Source: a virus
Direction: 5' to 3' (one strand)
Length of the DNA: 36,987 bases
IMG/VR virus record: IMGVR_UViG_3300023109_000056
Span: 1-36,987 of that record
Shown: one piece after another, positions 4,487 through 30,096 of the stretch
Numbering within the stretch: position 1 is the stretch's first letter
Layout of the letters: every line of letters starts with the position of its first letter
The notes under the pieces: generated by a model
Databases searched by the model: none
What the model saw: only the letters and a program-made list of their open reading frames with translations
Told to the model about the DNA's origin: nothing
Made by a program: the position numbers and the translations under genes

Positions 4487-4527
4487 CCCATTGTGAAGGA
4501 AGAGAACCTTCCCAATGGGTATTTTTT
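4482..4527 (+). terminator. Rho-independent terminator after nrdJ, embedded in a promoter
   Basis: Arms 4482-4499 and 4507-4524 form an 18-bp stem with one mismatch around a 7-nt loop (aagagaa), followed by T's to 4527. Read-through RNA from nrdJ would contain the full stem. RNA started at the overlapping promoter would lack the foot of the 5' arm. The ATG at 4515 lies in the 3' arm and is unlikely to be a real start. Confidence 0.75.
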
Positions 4528-4538
4528 ATGAGGAATAC

Positions 4539-5438
4539 ATGAAATTAGAAAATTTAACTAGGGATATGTTGATAGAGCGAGTCAATACGGGTCGTTCTGT
4601 CTCTAAGATATCTAAAGATTTGGGATTTAGGAGTAGCGTTTTTATTTGTAATTCTATTAGGGATAGGTGTAGAGAATGGGATATACCATTCTTACATCTT
4701 CCGTGTGAGCAGTTCAAAGAGAATAAAAGAGTGTTTTTCGAGTCTTCTAAGGCACAACTAGAGGAGATGGTCACAAAATGTAAAAGTTTCTCTCAGTTAT
4801 ATAGATTAACTGGACTGAGGAAAGATATTAAAAACGAGATAGTTGAATATCTACACGATAATTACGTAGACTATTCTCATTTTATTAATAATGAAAAGAA
4901 AGATTTGACGGATATGGTTTTCGGGAAGTGGAAGGTTATCTGTTTGGGTAGCGAGAAGAAGTTTAGAACTTGGAGGTGTATGTGTGTATGTGGGGACATG
5001 TATCCAGTGTTACAGACACATTTAGTGCAGGGAAATTCTAAGTCCTGCTGTAATTGTGCTGTTGTTGCTGGAAAACATAGTTCATGTTTTACTGGATATG
5101 AGGAGATTCGAGGAGCAAAATTTTCCGAAATAAGGAAGAAAGCTGATCAAAGAGGTCTCAATTTTGATGTTACTATAGAGTATTTATGGGAGGTTTTTAT
5201 GAGACAAGAAAAGCAATGTGCTTTGACGGGTAGAGATCTATATTTTTACGAAAGGGGAAATTCAAGGGGGAATGCGTCATTAGATAGGATAGACAGTAAA
5301 CTTGGTTACATACAGGGTAATGTTCAATGGGTCCTGAACGACGTGAATATAATGAAAAACAAGTATGATGAAGATTATTTTTTGTCTATTTGTCAAGATG
5401 TTTGTAAAAAAAAACAACTCAGTGTGAAATTTTTATAA
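4539..5438 (+). CDS. HNH homing endonuclease, free-standing
   Basis: 299 aa from ATG 4539, which has GAGG (4530-4533) 5 nt upstream; the in-frame ATG at 4515 lies inside a terminator stem. Layout: a helix-turn-helix-like DNA-binding segment (about residues 5-45, 'RSVSKISKDLGFRSS'), a Cys-rich zinc-ribbon-like module (C147, C149, C151 ... C170, C171, C173), then the phage HNH nuclease core at about 185-275 with EIRGAKFSEIRKKA, CALTGRDL, the NASLDRIDSKLGYIQGNVQW strand-turn-strand and NIMKNK. This arrangement is typical of free-standing homing endonucleases that spread by cutting alleles lacking them. It sits alone between nrdJ and small late genes and is bounded by late promoter boxes at 4479 and 5434. 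It is probably a mobile insertion, and the natural target would be a nearby locus in relatives. Confidence 0.88.
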   Translation: MKLENLTRDMLIERVNTGRSVSKISKDLGFRSSVFICNSIRDRCREWDIPFLHLPCEQFKENKRVFFESSKAQLEEMVTKCKSFSQLYRLTGLRKDIKNEIVEYLHDNYVDYSHFINNEKKDLTDMVFGKWKVICLGSEKKFRTWRCMCVCGDMYPVLQTHLVQGNSKSCCNCAVVAGKHSSCFTGYEEIRGAKFSEIRKKADQRGLNFDVTIEYLWEVFMRQEKQCALTGRDLYFYERGNSRGNASLDRIDSKLGYIQGNVQWVLNDVNIMKNKYDEDYFLSICQDVCKKKQLSVKFL

Positions 5439-5441
5439 ATA
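5434..5441 (+). promoter_or_regulatory. Late promoter box TATAAATA
   Basis: Exact octamer overlapping the stop codon of the HNH gene (TAA 5436-5438), 20 bp before the ATG at 5462. Confidence 0.8.
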
Positions 5442-5461
5442 CAGTTAACCGGAGGATTATT

Positions 5462-5698
5462 ATGTTAAATAATGGACTAAGATCGCTTGTTGAAGCGACC
5501 AACAAGAAGTTGAAGGAAGAAGAGGGTATCACTGATGCTGACCTAGATAAGGGTACCGCTGCTGAGAATGTACCTGCTAAGGCGGATATAGATGAGAACT
5601 CCCCTGAATTCAAGAAGAAGGTTATGGACCTAAAGAAGTTTGGAATGAGCGACGTTCAAGCGAAAGTTAAGGCACGAGCATCATTTCTTAAAAAATAA
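5462..5698 (+). CDS. Small lysine-rich protein, candidate prohead-targeted internal protein
   Basis: 78 aa with GGAGG (5451-5455) 6 nt upstream and its own late promoter, so it is well set for strong late expression. Charged and helical, no Cys, no known domain. The N-terminus MLNNGLRSLVE resembles the N-terminus of the next gene (MGDLKRLVE), and both end in L-V-E followed by (A/E)TN. T4 prohead protease gp21 cuts after (L/I)-x-E, and T4 internal head proteins carry a short cleaved N-terminal targeting peptide, so this could be a head cargo protein. That function is inferred; the gene itself is well supported. Confidence 0.75.
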   Translation: MLNNGLRSLVEATNKKLKEEEGITDADLDKGTAAENVPAKADIDENSPEFKKKVMDLKKFGMSDVQAKVKARASFLKK

Positions 5699-17121: not shown

Positions 17122-17712
17122 ATGAGCAATAGAGAAGAATTAGACGATGCCATGGGCATAACCACTGATGCTATGTTAAACATCGATGATCTAGATGAGG
17201 ATAACGTAGATGAGTATCTCTCTGATGTAAGATCTGCGATTAAACATACAGCAGACAATCCTCATGACGAAGAGGACCAAAAAGAGATAGAGAGGTATAA
17301 TAATAGAAAGAACGAGATTGCTCAGTTCAGGAAAAAACTAGATGTCGTTGGTGAGATGGAAAACAAGGACTGGGCGCAACAGATCCTTAAGAATAGTGCC
17401 CATAATATGCTAGTAGCGCAAAAGGTTGCTTTGGATGAAATCGCTGAGGACCCGATGAGTAAAAAGATCACCTCTATGGCAGAGATTTCAAATGCGATCA
17501 CATCTGCCGCAAAAACAATGATGGACATCGATACACAAGACGAGAACCTTCAGTTGTCTAAAGAGAAGAATAGACTCCGTAAGTTAGAGGTAGAGTCTAA
17601 ACTTAACATATTGGATACCAGTAGTTTAAAGAATAATGTTGGTTCTGGTTCTACAGAGGACATGTTAGAGTTGCTTGAAACTGAGGATGACGAGAAGGTA
17701 GAAGATGTCTAG
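17122..17712 (+). CDS. 16: Probable small terminase subunit gp16
   Basis: 196 aa (T4 gp16 is 164 aa). Placed after 15 and upstream of 17, as in T4. Residues about 85-170 (WAQQILKNSAHNMLVAQKVALDEIAEDPMSKKITSMAEISNAITSAAKTMMDIDTQ) match the helical pattern of the gp16 oligomerisation core, in which a helix ending in an (S/D)P turn precedes a second long helix. N- and C-termini are acidic. gp16 forms a ring that regulates gp17 and recognises DNA for packaging. There is no Shine-Dalgarno upstream; the late promoter ends 8 bp from the ATG. It overlaps the next gene by 8 bp. Assignment is by position and helix pattern. Confidence 0.72.
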   Translation: MSNREELDDAMGITTDAMLNIDDLDEDNVDEYLSDVRSAIKHTADNPHDEEDQKEIERYNNRKNEIAQFRKKLDVVGEMENKDWAQQILKNSAHNMLVAQKVALDEIAEDPMSKKITSMAEISNAITSAAKTMMDIDTQDENLQLSKEKNRLRKLEVESKLNILDTSSLKNNVGSGSTEDMLELLETEDDEKVEDV

Positions 17713-23336: not shown

Positions 23337-23882
23337 ATGGCTTGGAACTTAGCAAACTTTAGAAAAAACATCCCTGCGGTAGCGCTCAATCAATACTTTG
23401 AGATCTCAATCGATGGGATTGCTGGTCACGACGACCAGAGATTGACTGCTCTTGCTAGGACAACTGAGTTGCCAGCGATGCAACATGAGACCCTAGGTGT
23501 TCCTTATCGAGCACTGGAAATGAAGATTGAGACCAAGGTAACATTCACCGATTGGAATGTTACATTTCTCTGTGAGCAGGAACATGATTTGAGAACTAGA
23601 CTCCTTGAGATCCAAGCGCAGATGTACAAGTTGGATAGTGCTTCTAATGAGCCGCATGACGTTTATAAATTTGATCGTATGAATGTTTCTAAGGTTGGTT
23701 ATAATGGAAATGCGATCTCTGACACGACGTGTATTTTCTTTGGTGCGTTTCCTTCTAATGTAGGTCCAGTATCCCTAGATCAAGCAGGCGGGTCTTTTGA
23801 CACCTTCGACGTTACATTTACTTATGATTACTTCGTTCCTAAAGATGGTTCAATCGCAAACTGGTCAGGGACTCCTAACTAA
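23337..23882 (+). CDS. 19: Tail tube protein gp19 (copy 1)
   Basis: 181 aa (T4 gp19 is 163 aa). Forms the hexameric inner tube. N-terminus MAWNLANFRKNIPAVALNQYFEI; LARTTELPAM.HETLGVPYRA; the tube-fold segment FTDWNVTFLCE; and the ending VGPVSLDQAGGSFDTFDVTFTYDYF, the typical gp19 C-terminal signature. AAGGAGA (23324-23330) is 6 nt upstream, and it has a dedicated late promoter, so this copy has the best expression signals of the three tube-like genes and is probably the main tube subunit. Confidence 0.95.
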   Translation: MAWNLANFRKNIPAVALNQYFEISIDGIAGHDDQRLTALARTTELPAMQHETLGVPYRALEMKIETKVTFTDWNVTFLCEQEHDLRTRLLEIQAQMYKLDSASNEPHDVYKFDRMNVSKVGYNGNAISDTTCIFFGAFPSNVGPVSLDQAGGSFDTFDVTFTYDYFVPKDGSIANWSGTPN

Positions 23883-23896
23883 GAAGTAGGTAAATA

Positions 23897-24457
23897 ATGG
23901 CATGGAATCTTGCAAATTTTCGCAAGAAGATACCGCAGGTCTCGTTAAATCAGTATTTTGAGATTGAGATTAGCGGTCTAGACGTTATAAAGCCAGACGC
24001 TGATAGTAAGACTACAGGGGCGTTCGATGACGTATTAAACGCCCTTGTTAGGACAACTGAGGTCCCTACTAAGACCTTGGAGACTGAGAATGTAGCATAT
24101 TACGGCGCAGATTACAAGGTTAATTCAAAAGCGACCTATAGTGATTGGAATGTCACCTTTATGGAGACTACCGCTAATATTAGAAATATATTTTTGAATT
24201 GGACGGAATTAGCATATAATACTAAGGCGTTGCAGAACAACCCGCACTCTACCTATAAATCCAACGAATCTAAGGTTTTTAAACTCGATCACCGTGGAAA
24301 TTCAACAAAGAGGACAGGGGTTAGATTTTATGGCCTTTGGCCAACAACTGTCGGTCCTATGTCATTTGATCAGGCGGGTGGATCATTAGTAACATTTGAC
24401 GTATCGTTTACGTATGATTACTTTGAAATAATCAAACGAGATGTTTCTAATTCTTAA
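23897..24457 (+). CDS. Tail tube paralog (copy 2)
   Basis: 186 aa. The N-terminus MAWNLANFRKKIPQVSLNQYFEIEI is nearly the same as copy 1, as are YSDWNVTFME and the ending VGPMSFDQAGGSLVTFDVSFTYDYFE, so this is a tandem duplicate. It begins 14 bp after copy 1, with a weak ribosome site (TAGG) and no promoter of its own. The middle differs, with an insertion near residues 32-43 (IKPDADSKTTGAFD). It may be a minor tube subunit, a ring near the tail end, or a replacement under other conditions. That it is expressed is inferred from an intact frame and conserved signature. Confidence 0.88.
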   Translation: MAWNLANFRKKIPQVSLNQYFEIEISGLDVIKPDADSKTTGAFDDVLNALVRTTEVPTKTLETENVAYYGADYKVNSKATYSDWNVTFMETTANIRNIFLNWTELAYNTKALQNNPHSTYKSNESKVFKLDHRGNSTKRTGVRFYGLWPTTVGPMSFDQAGGSLVTFDVSFTYDYFEIIKRDVSNS

Positions 24458-24503: not shown

Positions 24504-25154
24504 ATGGCAGAATCTAATTCATCTGGAGAGCAGTCCGAACTATTTAAGTTTGGCGAACAGGTCCCTACGTTCGCACGTGGGTACCAATTCGCCCTGAATC
24601 TGGAATTCCCCGCAGGCGTTTCAGTAACCGCAAAGAGAATAGGGACAAAGTCTGCGCCTGATGAGAAGATCTATACTATGCTGTGTGATTCTATGACATT
24701 GCCCCAGCGGACATTCGAGACAGAGGAAATCATGGTTCAATATGGTAAACCTCCTATAAAGATCGCTAGGCAGGTTAGGTATACCAACTGGGCAGTTGTA
24801 TTTAGGACCCCTGCTGGGATGGGACTAAGGGATATGTTCCTTGCGTGGCAAGATGAGATACAGTCTACTGGTAATGGCGGTGGTGAAGGTGGTCGCCGTA
24901 TGGATTACAGTTTACCAGAGAAGTATAAAATAGATGGGAGTGAGGCAAAGATAAAATTAAAACCTGGTTCCGGTTCCGATGCGACAGGAGCAACCTATAA
25001 ATTCTATGGGTTATATCCGTCTGATGTAAATGGGGTAACGCTTTCTCATTCTGATACTAGTATAGTAACATTTTCTGTTGACTTTTCGTATGATTTCTAC
25101 GAAGTAGAGTTCAATACAGCAGACAGTGATAATGAAGAAAAAGATAATACTTAA
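24504..25154 (+). CDS. Divergent tail-tube-like protein (copy 3; gp19 or gp54-like)
   Basis: 216 aa. More divergent, but with the same plan: LCDSMTLPQRTFETEEIMVQYGKP corresponds to the RTTELP..TLE region, VRYTNWAVVFR to the FxDWNVTF strand, and GATYKFYGLYPSDVNGVTLSHSDTSIVTFSVDFSYDFYEV to the C-terminal signature. It has an extra N-terminal segment (about 20 residues), a Gly-rich loop (GNGGGEGGRR) and an acidic tail. T4 has tube-fold relatives gp48 and gp54 that nucleate the tube on the baseplate; a gp48 is found separately at 30106, so this copy may serve the gp54 role. There is no good Shine-Dalgarno. Confidence 0.82.
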   Translation: MAESNSSGEQSELFKFGEQVPTFARGYQFALNLEFPAGVSVTAKRIGTKSAPDEKIYTMLCDSMTLPQRTFETEEIMVQYGKPPIKIARQVRYTNWAVVFRTPAGMGLRDMFLAWQDEIQSTGNGGGEGGRRMDYSLPEKYKIDGSEAKIKLKPGSGSDATGATYKFYGLYPSDVNGVTLSHSDTSIVTFSVDFSYDFYEVEFNTADSDNEEKDNT

Positions 25155-25202
25155 TAAAAAAATTATTAGGTAGTATAATTACGTTCATACGGAGGTTGAT
25201 AT

Positions 25203-26006
25203 ATGAGTAATGACGTACTAAGTCAGTTTAAGAACTTAAAGAAGGATATCCCTGATTGTAAGTTTGATTTACCGGGGTCAGGAGAATCTATATTCTTTAG
25301 ACCATTCACAACAAAGGATCAGAAGGCGCTCCTTAAAGCGATGGAGAAGGATGACTATGATCTTGCTCAAGAGGCGTTTGATGCCCTCTTAAATCGATGT
25401 GTATCCAATGATGGGTTCAATGCCCTTAATCTTTACCCGAAGGACCGTGAGTCGCTTTTAATCGCCCTTAGGAAGGAATCGGTTAAAGATGAGTACGAGG
25501 ACTCTTGGATTTGTAGAAATGAGGTTGGAGATGGTGACGAAAAGACTGAATGCGGTCATGAGAACACTGTTGAGTTAAAATTGAGCGAACTTGATTTTAC
25601 GCAACTAGATAAGGGTTCCTTCTTGAAGGAGATCCCATTGACAGATAGAGATTGTACCCTAGTTATGGATATGGCAAAGCGTGGCGACGAGAAAAATGTC
25701 ATGAACCATGCTAAAAAGCACTCTAAAGGACTAAAGGACACTAGTAGAACCGAGTTGTTGCATGCGACAATGGCATCCTTTATCCAGTCCATCAAGATGG
25801 GAGAGGAAGAGGTTACTGACCTCCCGTTTACAGATAAGGTCGCTATTATTGACGATTTATCAATGGCAGACCGTGCCTCTGTTCAAGAGTATATTAAAGA
25901 ATTAGAGAAATATGGGTATGAGATGAATATCGGGGAGCATACGTGTGAGCAATGTGGACAAACCACCGCACGTGAACTGGACTGGATGTATTTTTTCGCA
26001 TTGTAA
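25203..26006 (+). CDS. 26: Baseplate hub / tail assembly chaperone-like protein, gp26 family
   Basis: 267 aa; GGAGG (25191-25195) is 7 nt upstream. The pattern FFRPFTTKDQKALLKAMEKDD, a short helical repeat NRCVSND..NALNLYPKDRESLLIALRKES, then a C(x)n-C segment (WICRNEV...ECGHENTVELKLSELDF) is that of the T4 baseplate hub protein family (gp26). A second Cys cluster (HTCEQCG) lies near the C-terminus. The 3' end carries the phased slippery heptamer T TTT TTC (25991-25997) followed by four codons and TAA, and a -1 shift would join the 73-codon ORF downstream. Proteins with this position before a tape measure gene act as assembly chaperones in many phages. The gp26 label is by pattern and not by search. 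Confidence 0.78.
   Translation: MSNDVLSQFKNLKKDIPDCKFDLPGSGESIFFRPFTTKDQKALLKAMEKDDYDLAQEAFDALLNRCVSNDGFNALNLYPKDRESLLIALRKESVKDEYEDSWICRNEVGDGDEKTECGHENTVELKLSELDFTQLDKGSFLKEIPLTDRDCTLVMDMAKRGDEKNVMNHAKKHSKGLKDTSRTELLHATMASFIQSIKMGEEEVTDLPFTDKVAIIDDLSMADRASVQEYIKELEKYGYEMNIGEHTCEQCGQTTARELDWMYFFAL
25991..25997 (+). promoter_or_regulatory. Candidate -1 ribosomal frameshift site T TTT TTC
   Basis: In the gp26-like frame the codons read taT TTT TTC gca ttg taa, exactly the X XXY YYZ phase. The -1 frame is open from 25976 (after TGA 25973-25975) and continues into the 26006 ORF. A shift would give a 341-aa product instead of 267 aa. Only a weak 5-bp hairpin (26020-26024 with 26031-26035) is visible downstream. 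Confidence 0.5.
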
Positions 26007-26227
26007 TGATAGGTGATACTACATATTTTAATGTATGTAACGAGGAATGCTCTATTTGGTATTATTCTGAGAGATCAGCATTAACCAAGGCGGATACAGA
26101 CGAAATGTACCCGTATGAGAGACAACTCACGTTGGATTTGTTTAAAAGTTTTGAAGAAAGTCTAGAAGAGAAGAGGAAAGAGGCGGAAGGCGCTCAATCC
26201 GGTAAAACATCACAGACTGCTTGGTGA
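26006..26227 (+). CDS. 73-codon ORF before the tape measure; probable frameshift extension of gp26-like gene
   Basis: ATG 26006 overlaps the upstream stop as TAATG and has no Shine-Dalgarno. The peptide (MIGDTTYFNVCNEECSIWYYSERSALTKADTDEMYPYERQL...) has a Cys pair near residues 11-15, aromatic residues and a charged helical tail ending SGKTSQTAW. It lies in the -1 frame relative to the gp26-like gene, with the slippery heptamer inside the overlap. It may be expressed as a fusion (like lambda gpGT), by termination-reinitiation, or both. T4 gp51 and gp28 are small hub-assembly proteins of comparable context, but no direct match is evident. Confidence 0.65.
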   Translation: MIGDTTYFNVCNEECSIWYYSERSALTKADTDEMYPYERQLTLDLFKSFEESLEEKRKEAEGAQSGKTSQTAW

Positions 26228-26250: not shown

Positions 26251-29200
26251 ATGGCGAAAATTGGACAGAAACCCGAGACCCTCAAAGACGGGGATCTCGG
26301 GGAGATAGAAAAACTCGTTGGTGGGATCTTCACCAAGGGGATGGTACCGCTATTGGAAAGTACCGTAGATAATAGAAATGAGATAAACTCTAAGAATAAG
26401 CGGTACTTCGATCAGACCGCTAAAACGATAGATTCCGTTAATGCTACATTAGGACGGCATGAAAAAGGGAGGAAGGGAAGAGAGAGGATAGAGGAGGAGT
26501 GGTACAAAAGTAACCAACGAGACCTTGGTGAGCAAGGAAAAAAGGTGGATGATATTTATGCCTTGCAAAAAGAGACGAATCAGGAGATCACAAATAAAAC
26601 CCAAAAAATCAATACAAATATAACTAGTTTTTGGGGCAAAAAGTTTGCTCATATGAAGGAAGAGGAAGAAGAGAAAGAAACTAGGCGAACTTTTGAAAGA
26701 AAAACAACCTTCTCTAAAATTATAGATGTAATAAAGGCAAGTAAGGCGAAGCAGGAGGATCTAAAAAAGAAGGGCGATTCGATCCTAGCAAAGTTTGGTA
26801 AATTTTTCGGAAAGGCGGGTGCGATAATAAAATTACTAGCGATACCATTCACCTTTGTTTTTAAGAAGTTATTTTCGATAGGGGGACCCATCCTAAAGTT
26901 TTTAGTTTCTCCGCTTAGGTGGTTGTTTAAGAAATTATTTCTGGGGTCTAAGTTTAAACTCTTAATGGTGGGTGCTATTGGTGCAGGGATATATGCATAT
27001 AGTGATAAAATATCTGGGTTTATACGGAAAATGGTAGATAAGGTGGACTGGGATAAAGTCTTCGGTTGGGCATTCGATAAAATAATGTTTGGCGTGGAGA
27101 TTATAACTAAACTCGCTAATAAATTAGGAGAATATCTTGCTAAGGTAGACTGGGGTGGTATATGGGACAAAATAAAGGAACCTGTCGGGAAGGCACTCGG
27201 TGGGTTATTTGACGCCATTATGGTGGTTGGTGCCCCTATATGGGAAGCGATTAAGAGTGGGATTTCTATGCTATGGAGTAAGTTTTGGGAGAGTCCCGGT
27301 ACCCATATTGCTAACTTCGTATCTGTTATGTGGACTGGCATATGGTCGGCACTTTCTAATCCGGGTGCAGTACTTGCATTCGCAGGTGGTGCTGTTGTTG
27401 TTGGATCTATAGCATCTATATTTTTGGGATCAATTGGTAGGTTGCTAATAGGTGCCCCTCTTAAATACTTAGGGTTTGGGATCTTAAAGACCTTTGGTTG
27501 GATATTAAAAAAAGTAGCAGGTGGAGTATTTAAATACGCATTAGCTCCGGCTCTAAAATGGGGATTTAGGACTATCCTAGCACCATTACTTACTGGGTTA
27601 ATGGGAAAGTTGGGAATCACCACTGCCCTCAATTACATTAAGGGCGCAGGAAAGAATTTCACCGGGTTCCTTAAAGGCACCAAAGAAACTGCTATCAGTT
27701 CTATGAAAAAACCATTTGTGGCATCATCGATGACACGGACCAAGGCGAACTATTCTGGGAAGGGCTTAACGTCGGATGGTCTTAGCAAGGGCCTTCCTTC
27801 TGGACAACCTCCAAAGGGAAAATGGTATAAGGGAAAGGGTGGAGTAATCGCTGGTCTGGCAGTTGGCACTGGTGTCGTAGGCGGAACTCAATTATTGGGC
27901 TCTTCCCCGGAAGCGACTCTTGTCGCTAGTTCAGCAACAAATGTTGGGCTAGATATTGCAGGTGCTGTAGCTAGGAGAAAAGAAGCCAAGGTTGCTAAAA
28001 AAGTTGCTCAAGAAGCAACTCAAACGGTCAGTCTGAGAGCAGGGTCGGCATGGGGAAAGAGTGCATCTAAGAATATAGCGGAAAAAGCATCCAGTCTGAG
28101 AGCAGGATCGGCATGGGGAAAGAATATATCTAAGGAGATAGCGGAAAAGGCAGGCAAGTCTGTAACCAAGAAGGTTTTAGACACAACTGGCGAGATAATT
28201 GCTAAAAAAACAATTTTACTCACATCGAAGGCTGTGGCAAAGGGCGTTGTCAAGAAGATTCCTCTTGTAGGGATAGGTGCAGGAGCAGTATTTGCTGCAA
28301 ACCGACTTTGGAATGGGGACCTCGCAGGTGCGGCTATGGAGGTATATTCTGGTCTGATCTCAACAATTCCTTATTTTGGGACGATAGCGTCTGCTGCGAT
28401 AGATTATGAAATACTAAAGAGAGATTTAACTAGATTATCCAATACAATGAAATTAGACAAACAAATAGAGAATCTAAGGAATGTCATAAATGAAAATGTA
28501 TTAACTTTGGAAAATACAGCGGATCAATTTGAGAGCATAACTAGCAGGATGAGGACTCGACTTGATAAGATATTAGAGGATGGCGTTGATAAGTTTGATG
28601 TTTTCCGAGCGACAAAAATGCAGGATGATTTTAATATGCTAATTAAAAATCGGACGGATTATGAGAACAAAATTTTAGAATTGAAGAAAAAGAGGAAGGA
28701 GTCTCCAGATGAATTTACCCAAAGCGATATGTCTTTCCTTATGGAGTATGAAAATAGGTTAAGAACGGTTAAGGGTGAAATACAGGATCAGTCTCCGAAA
28801 ATAGAATCGATAACAAAACAGCTAGAGGAGGCAGGGTTCACAAACCTAAAAGAGTATCGTACTGAGAGAATGAAAGAACTTGTAAATAAGGTGAATTCTG
28901 GACAGGACGTTACTAAGGATGAGGCAAGGGAGGCAAAGGCTCTATTTGAGTCAGAAACTGATAATAGGAAAAACAATATTAATACGGAGATTCAAATCCT
29001 ACAAGCAGAACTTATGAAAGAGCAGGCAGAGTTAAAGGTATTGAGGGATGATTCTAGTGGTATGTGGGGAGCCATACAAGCTGAGTATGGATTTGGCGGC
29101 GGCATGGAGGCTCAGGCAGAGGTTAGTGATAGGATCGGATTTATCCAAGCAAAAATTGAGAAAATCAATATTGAAGAGATGGCAATCTCAAAAACCTATT

Positions 29201-30096
29201 TTGAGATATCGGATAAGATGGGTAAAATATTAGAAGATACCTCGAATATAAAAGAACTCAACAAGGAACAACTCAGCAAGATGACCGATGAAGAACTATC
29301 TAAGGCAATACAAGAGAACCAAGAGAAAGAAGGTGAGAAGTCTAAAGAGGTGTTGAAACTTTTAACGGAAGAGGAGACTAGGCGAAAGAAGGAGCAGGAT
29401 CTAAAGGCTTTGCCGTTGCATGCACAAATAGCAGAGATGATGATAGGGCCGAATACTCCACTTGGCGGGTTATTTAAAGATGCAAAGGAAAGTTCGGCTA
29501 TGTTAGCAAAAAAAGCAGCGGGAAAGGCAAACGAATCTCTCGGCATTGCCCTCGGCGGAAGGTCAATTTCAGATCTCAAAAATCAGGCATCCGCAGGCGT
29601 AAAGGATAAAATGAAGGGCGTGTTTGAGTCCGAATCCTTTAAGAAACTAAGGGAGGGTGTAAAACCAGAGAACTTTAAGAAAAAGTTGGACGAAACTAGT
29701 TCGGACCCTAGGATTAAAACTAGGATGGACAATCTTGGGAAGAGTATGTTCGGTGATGGTAGTTCTTACGAGACCCCTCTTCCTCCCCCAGAAAAGAGAA
29801 CCGCAGAATCTGATTTAGCGGTCCCTGCTCCGGTAGGGGACGGGTCAGCAGATGTATCGGATATAAAAGCATCAATGGGCGGAGAACCGGAGGGCGTGAA
29901 ACTATCTCCAGAGAATCAGGCGATTGTGGCCGCTGTTAACGGAACCACCATTGCCTCCGCCGAAAAACTAGCGGAGGCATTGGTAAAGACTGCAAAGGTG
30001 GCCGCAGAAAGTGGAGGGGCTACAAAACATGGGCAAGATTTGTCCGCTAAAAATAACAACACTTCAACTAGAAAAGAAACAAGCGTAGGACGATAG
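26251..30096 (+). CDS. Tape measure protein (gp29 counterpart)
   Basis: 1281 aa, the largest gene. It lies after the chaperone-like pair and before the tube-cap gene gp48, where T4 has gp29 (590 aa), which sets tail length. N-terminal about 130 residues are charged helices. Hydrophobic, glycine-rich segments follow at about residues 188-255 (IIKLLAIPFTFVFKKLF, FKLLMVGAIGAGIYAY), 373-413 (LAFAGGAVVVGSIASIFLG), 530-552 and 663-690, as in tape measures that insert in the cell envelope. Residues about 730-1060 form long charged coiled coils. A 21-aa unit is tandemly duplicated at about 594-635. The C-terminus is Pro/Ala-rich. Translation of the late transcript would be nearly leaderless; no Shine-Dalgarno is visible. 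More than twice the length of T4 gp29. Confidence 0.82.
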   Translation: MAKIGQKPETLKDGDLGEIEKLVGGIFTKGMVPLLESTVDNRNEINSKNKRYFDQTAKTIDSVNATLGRHEKGRKGRERIEEEWYKSNQRDLGEQGKKVDDIYALQKETNQEITNKTQKINTNITSFWGKKFAHMKEEEEEKETRRTFERKTTFSKIIDVIKASKAKQEDLKKKGDSILAKFGKFFGKAGAIIKLLAIPFTFVFKKLFSIGGPILKFLVSPLRWLFKKLFLGSKFKLLMVGAIGAGIYAYSDKISGFIRKMVDKVDWDKVFGWAFDKIMFGVEIITKLANKLGEYLAKVDWGGIWDKIKEPVGKALGGLFDAIMVVGAPIWEAIKSGISMLWSKFWESPGTHIANFVSVMWTGIWSALSNPGAVLAFAGGAVVVGSIASIFLGSIGRLLIGAPLKYLGFGILKTFGWILKKVAGGVFKYALAPALKWGFRTILAPLLTGLMGKLGITTALNYIKGAGKNFTGFLKGTKETAISSMKKPFVASSMTRTKANYSGKGLTSDGLSKGLPSGQPPKGKWYKGKGGVIAGLAVGTGVVGGTQLLGSSPEATLVASSATNVGLDIAGAVARRKEAKVAKKVAQEATQTVSLRAGSAWGKSASKNIAEKASSLRAGSAWGKNISKEIAEKAGKSVTKKVLDTTGEIIAKKTILLTSKAVAKGVVKKIPLVGIGAGAVFAANRLWNGDLAGAAMEVYSGLISTIPYFGTIASAAIDYEILKRDLTRLSNTMKLDKQIENLRNVINENVLTLENTADQFESITSRMRTRLDKILEDGVDKFDVFRATKMQDDFNMLIKNRTDYENKILELKKKRKESPDEFTQSDMSFLMEYENRLRTVKGEIQDQSPKIESITKQLEEAGFTNLKEYRTERMKELVNKVNSGQDVTKDEAREAKALFESETDNRKNNINTEIQILQAELMKEQAELKVLRDDSSGMWGAIQAEYGFGGGMEAQAEVSDRIGFIQAKIEKINIEEMAISKTYFEISDKMGKILEDTSNIKELNKEQLSKMTDEELSKAIQENQEKEGEKSKEVLKLLTEEETRRKKEQDLKALPLHAQIAEMMIGPNTPLGGLFKDAKESSAMLAKKAAGKANESLGIALGGRSISDLKNQASAGVKDKMKGVFESESFKKLREGVKPENFKKKLDETSSDPRIKTRMDNLGKSMFGDGSSYETPLPPPEKRTAESDLAVPAPVGDGSADVSDIKASMGGEPEGVKLSPENQAIVAAVNGTTIASAEKLAEALVKTAKVAAESGGATKHGQDLSAKNNNTSTRKETSVGR
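28030..28155 (+). repeat. 63-bp tandem duplication in the tape measure gene
   Basis: Units 28030-28092 and 28093-28155 encode SLRAGSAWGK-x-x-SK-x-IAEKA twice. A recent in-frame duplication; tape measure repeats of this sort change tail length by small steps. Confidence 0.85.

Follow-up and report, generated by a model that had tools for sequence, protein, structure and literature searches.

In lambda (G/GT) and HK97 (gp13), short and -1-extended tail assembly chaperones are encoded directly before the tape measure gene, the arrangement that we propose here. The lambda slippery site reads G GGA AAG, and the E/E+E' pair of P2, which is believed to belong to a different protein family, uses the poly-T heptamer T TTT TTG. 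A 2016 review counted T4 as the exception to the conservation of the frameshift among long-tailed phages (PMC5009743). The chaperone genes of T4-like phages were identified by Vladimirov, Gautam and Davidson (2022, Virology 566:9-15; cited in PMC10885494 and PMC12846349); in the passages that draw on that study, some T4-like phages are said to replace the frameshift by two genes, one short and the other longer and fused (PMC10885494), and poly-T slippery sites are attributed to T4-like TAC-N genes (PMC12846349). The phenomenon is thus already known for T4-like phages and widespread in phages, and the locus analyzed here is a new, divergent example of it that adds an uncultivated lineage, itself divergent, to the T4-like groups with this frameshift. 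With the T4-like chaperones of Vladimirov et al., as far as they are described in the citing papers, it shares the gp26-family short form, the putative gp51-type extension, the tape measure neighbor and the poly-T site.

The window, by which we mean the whole analyzed stretch of 36,987 nucleotides (IMG/VR record IMGVR_UViG_3300023109_000056), carries a sheath gene and three tandem tail tube (gp19-like) genes (23337-23882, 23897-24457 and 24504-25154; profile matches to phrog_45 with E values of 2.5e-20, 1.1e-25 and 2.7e-24, in that order) upstream of a gp26-like gene (25203-26006). The latter is preceded by a Shine-Dalgarno sequence (CGGAGG, 25190-25195; duplex energy, -10.8 kcal/mol), and its 267-amino-acid product falls in the T4 baseplate/gp26 family (PF12322 and phrog_150, both E=1e-28), in agreement with the identity proposed in the first-pass annotation. 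The gp26/gp51 locus, all features of which lie on the plus strand, sits between the tail tube genes and a 1,281-amino-acid ORF (26251-30096). Profile searches with this ORF found no specific match to a tape measure family; we read it as the tape measure gene because of its length, its position downstream of gp26/gp51 and the gene order in HTVC008M, in which an annotated tape measure gene follows a short way downstream of gp51. The inferred tape measure protein also contains a tandem duplication of approximately 21 residues (SLRAGSAWGK..., 28030-28155), a motif not present in L021, the relative discussed below.

In frame 0, the gp26-like gene ends in TAT TTT TTC GCA TTG TAA, which puts the heptamer T TTT TTC (25991-25997) in exact slippery phase, as first annotated; the accompanying statement that it lies four codons before the stop was loosely counted, since two sense codons and then the stop follow it. 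Also as first described, the -1 frame is free of stops from 25976 to 26227 and takes in a 73-codon ORF (26006-26227, if annotated alone), and the computed products are the predicted 267 amino acids for normal reading and a 341-amino-acid fusion when ribosomes slip at the heptamer. The 73-codon ORF begins with an ATG, at 26006, that shares bases with the gp26-like stop codon (TAATG, 26004-26008; a possible reinitiation site) and indeed has no Shine-Dalgarno sequence, with a duplex energy of +0.8 kcal/mol versus the -10.8 at the gp26 start. Most genes of the window have such a sequence, but the inferred tape measure start at 26251 does not and scores badly too (+1.3), so the poor value at 26006 is by itself weak evidence. 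Another gene, at 17122, is likewise poor in this respect (+1.6). Compared with most relatives, the junction has one extra codon before the stop, plus the TAATG.

The AlphaFold model of the window's gp26 (pLDDT 80, pTM 0.65) strongly matches gp26-type baseplate hub proteins in a viral structure library, and its best matches in the PDB are the HK97 tail assembly chaperone 2OB9 (top), 3FGX and 3KLU, of which the latter two are presumably tail assembly chaperones of the same kind. Individually, these PDB matches are weak (Foldseek E values of 2 or worse; VIA Z scores of 5.7 to 6.1 over approximately 90 residues), and a sequence-profile search against the PDB turned up noise only. The weak match to 2OB9 covers gp26 residues 1 to 98; the gp26-family protein is longer than the lambda and HK97 chaperones, and the fold match is confined to roughly its first 100 residues.

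A tblastn search with the 83-amino-acid -1 product against phages returned no match even at E=1, and homology of the extension was therefore taken from position, from L021 and from profiles. The extension matches the phrog_634 gp51 profile weakly (E=0.016; approximately 8e-4 in a small target set), contains a PYER motif and was the best-scoring, if weakly matching, ORF of the window in a gp51-domain search. Its position and its similarity to the -1 product of L021, a relative with the same layout, add to this weak profile match in support of the 73-codon ORF as a putative divergent gp51-type C-terminal domain, an identity that the first-pass annotation did not give. The nearest relative, L021 (IMG/VR), is 72% identical in the sheath and approximately 51% identical in gp26 (versus 17 to 24% for gp26 of the reference families compared). 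It agrees with the window in heptamer, in spacing and in the TAATG, and its -1 product is 67% identical to that of the window, with a match that starts upstream of the heptamer, inside the overlap. Mismatches between the two are distributed 21/17/36 over the -1 codon positions, and the -1 frame has a dN of 0.28 and a dS of 1.84 (dN/dS, approximately 0.15), so that purifying selection acts on the -1 frame as coding sequence.

We read 20 loci codon by codon, 19 of them drawn from the phage collection and the remaining one that of the window; they span Kyanoviridae, Straboviridae, Pootjesviridae, Pseudomonas phage pf16 and others. In 17 of them, an in-phase T TTT TTN lies over the last gp26 codons and the -1 frame leads into a domain that bears a P-[WFY]-E-R-like motif and that is annotated as gp51 (baseplate hub assembly catalyst) wherever it has been given a function. 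The window's gp26 alone as a query against viral contigs found no relative, and an alignment of 19 gp26 sequences held no stretch conserved enough for searching; relatives were reached via the sheath protein and clade alignments, and scans of viral contigs enlarged the set to 109 gp26 loci. The heptamer is kept in 106 of these (100 TTTTTTC, 5 TTTTTTT and 1 TTTTTTG) and, when sequences are clustered at 60% identity, the in-phase T TTT TTN is found in 16 of 19 clusters. Its codon phase is fixed in all slippery loci, and the -1 frame is open into the gp51-type domain in every inspected locus with a long enough contig. Codon choice is skewed as well: pairs of phenylalanines are written TTT TTC at the heptamer site in 100 of 106 cases versus 2 of 95 elsewhere in the same genes, in which TTT makes up 70% of the phenylalanine codons and a T precedes in 29% of cases. 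In Rhizobium phage RHph_Y68, FF has become FL and T TTT TTG is nonetheless kept, the same heptamer as that of P2 E/E+E'. Within the sequences sampled, then, the heptamer is nearly invariant across T4-like families outside the T4 group. Both the in-phase T TTT TTN and the constant -1 relation are retained among relatives, L021 included, as the first-pass annotation had anticipated for a genuine frameshift; the pattern that it had taken to speak against one, loss of the heptamer with the two ORFs apart, was seen only in the distant Vibrio phages VP-1 and D503 and not in the lineage of the window.

Chance was assessed within the window itself, whose 28 genes contain 59 in-phase heptamers of the form X XXY YYZ. 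Only two of these combine a distance of at most 10 codons to the stop with a -1 frame that stays open for more than 50 codons: the heptamer at 25991-25997 and A AAA AAA at 5408-5414. The latter is found at the end of an HNH endonuclease gene, and the -1 frame there passes through 96 open codons to reach an ORF at 5462. Since that ORF has its own, strong Shine-Dalgarno sequence, we rejected this poly-A stretch as a second frameshift site; it is probably a chance case and serves as a useful negative control. For the heptamer at 25991-25997, chance is ruled out by its conservation in the homologous loci. The endonuclease gene (HNH-type homing endonuclease, phrog_3322; 4515-5698) ends in an A9 run.

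Stimulators of -1 frameshifting, either Shine-Dalgarno-like elements upstream or structures downstream, are common but not obligatory. No Shine-Dalgarno-like element was found upstream of the heptamer in the window, and the downstream hairpin is as weak as first noted, folding no better than shuffled sequences (z, -0.1 to 0.1), so that the window differs from its cyanophage relatives in having no clear stimulatory hairpin. Those relatives tend to carry a Shine-Dalgarno-like GAGGG approximately 9 nucleotides upstream of the heptamer; GAG occurs upstream of the heptamer in 72 of 87 loci versus 31% elsewhere, a comparison that ignores relatedness. Similarly, and again ignoring relatedness, a hairpin just 3' of the heptamer reaches z < -2 in 67% of a cyanophage-dominated set versus 5% of control windows. 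RNAalifold found no consensus structure for 30 cyanophage junctions, despite the strong hairpins of single sequences. The hairpins and GAGGG of the cyanophages are possible frameshift stimulators. In several cyanophage loci (L004, L023 and L026 among them), the strong 3' hairpins include the annotated gp51 start codon.

Taken together, the sequence comparisons make it very probable that a programmed -1 frameshift gives rise to the short and long tail assembly chaperones of this T4-like myovirus, and the comparative evidence across gp26 loci supports the earlier suggestion that it uses a device of the gpG/gpGT type. Normal translation would produce the 267-amino-acid short form (gp26 family, TAC-N, lambda gpG-like). 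A minority of ribosomes would slip by -1 on T TTT TTC at 25991-25997 and continue into the open -1 frame (25976-26227; TAC-C, gpT-like), yielding the 341-amino-acid long form with its gp51-type C-terminal domain (TAC-NC, gpGT-like). Slipping in vivo, the efficiency of the slip and the role as chaperones are what we infer here: with lambda as the guide, short chaperones in large numbers and long ones in small numbers would bind the product of the tape measure gene that follows and recruit tail tube subunits.

We weighed several other readings of the locus. Of these, the one that fares best keeps the frameshift as the source of the long form and adds reinitiation as a source of some free C-terminal domain. 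The window and L021 each keep both the heptamer and the TAATG, but 26006 has no Shine-Dalgarno sequence and other lineages do without such a start codon, so that there is no general need for a free domain; we consider this combination rather unlikely. Somewhat less likely still is a broader proposal, in which the window's lineage would make three products (the short form, the frameshifted long form and the free C-terminal domain via TAATG) and the VP-1 and D503 lineages the free or coupled domain alone. In both Vibrio phages, gp26 is followed by a gp51-like ORF (L016, 3214-3420, and L010, 3199-3399) with a TAATG and no canonical heptamer (GTT TTT C in VP-1), and VP-1 and D503 may indeed work differently. 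If the proposal is true, their free or coupled domain would be one more route, the third after frameshifting and gene duplication.

That the locus makes just two separate proteins, with the 73-amino-acid ORF translated by termination-reinitiation at the TAATG (translational coupling) and no frameshift at all, seems to us very improbable. The overlap is present in the window and L021, as well as in K575, VP-1, D503 and S-CRM01, and VP-1 and D503 retain it without the canonical heptamer. However, reinitiation alone leaves the invariant in-phase heptamer unexplained, and it fails equally for lineages that have no ATG ahead of the domain body: in Aeh1, AS-zj, Cronobacter S13, OC and C48C1, ordinary ATG initiation cannot yield the whole domain. 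Nor would it explain the single-ORF fusion of T4-type phages described below. The caveat in the first-pass annotation that the TAATG also fits termination-reinitiation may hold for reinitiation as an addition to the frameshift, rather than as a substitute for it. Slippage of RNA polymerase on the T6 run, by which one added base would lead to the same frame, is more improbable again; T6 is short for polymerase slippage, and the fixed codon phase of the heptamer is a requirement of tandem tRNA slippage and would be needless for the polymerase. Finally, an error of sequencing or assembly, or the decay of a gene whose single ORF has been split by an indel, has a negligible probability even though poly-T runs are error prone, being refuted by the conservation of the same arrangement in 106 loci, among them complete genomes such as those of P-SSM2 and Aeh1.

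The frameshift reading also accommodates the T4-type phages, of which we examined Shigella phage Sfk20. There, gp26 is followed by gp25 without a heptamer, and gp51 is encoded by a separate gene, one uninterrupted ORF with a PF12322 domain (1-201) and a phrog_634 domain (147-246). From the FF junction on, this protein can be aligned with the -1 products, its domains being joined at the equivalent point; its single-ORF architecture indicates that the fused product exists naturally, and its domain layout indicates that T4-type phages encode the long form as a gene of its own. Genes 26 and 51 of T4 would accordingly correspond in their domains to the short form and the fused long form but, unlike in the window, they are separate, divergently transcribed genes without a slippery heptamer. 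Lineages other than the T4 type, judged by the loci compared, appear to make the long form by frameshifting. The 2022 abstract of Vladimirov et al. reportedly covers frameshifting in several T4-like groups and genes 26 and 51 in T4. The remark that T4 itself is not known for such a frameshift has been answered in print: the long form of T4-type phages is a separate gene (PMC10885494). For the essential gp51 of T4, listed in PMC3004832 as a protein whose function is unknown, the long chaperone form is a fitting identity.

These results bear on annotation as well, the rule being that gp26 and gp51 are joined at the FF codons. The gp51 of cyanophages was reported to have approximately 20% of the normal length, and that of Aeh1 to be "missing" (PMC3037559). 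The frameshift explains the short cyanophage annotation, and gp51 is missing in Aeh1 because its domain is unannotated there, as it also is in Aeromonas phage AS-zj and in Cronobacter phage S13 (the three loci are L009, L011 and L013). The annotations of OC and C48C1 include only part of the gp51-type domain, beginning at an internal start codon.
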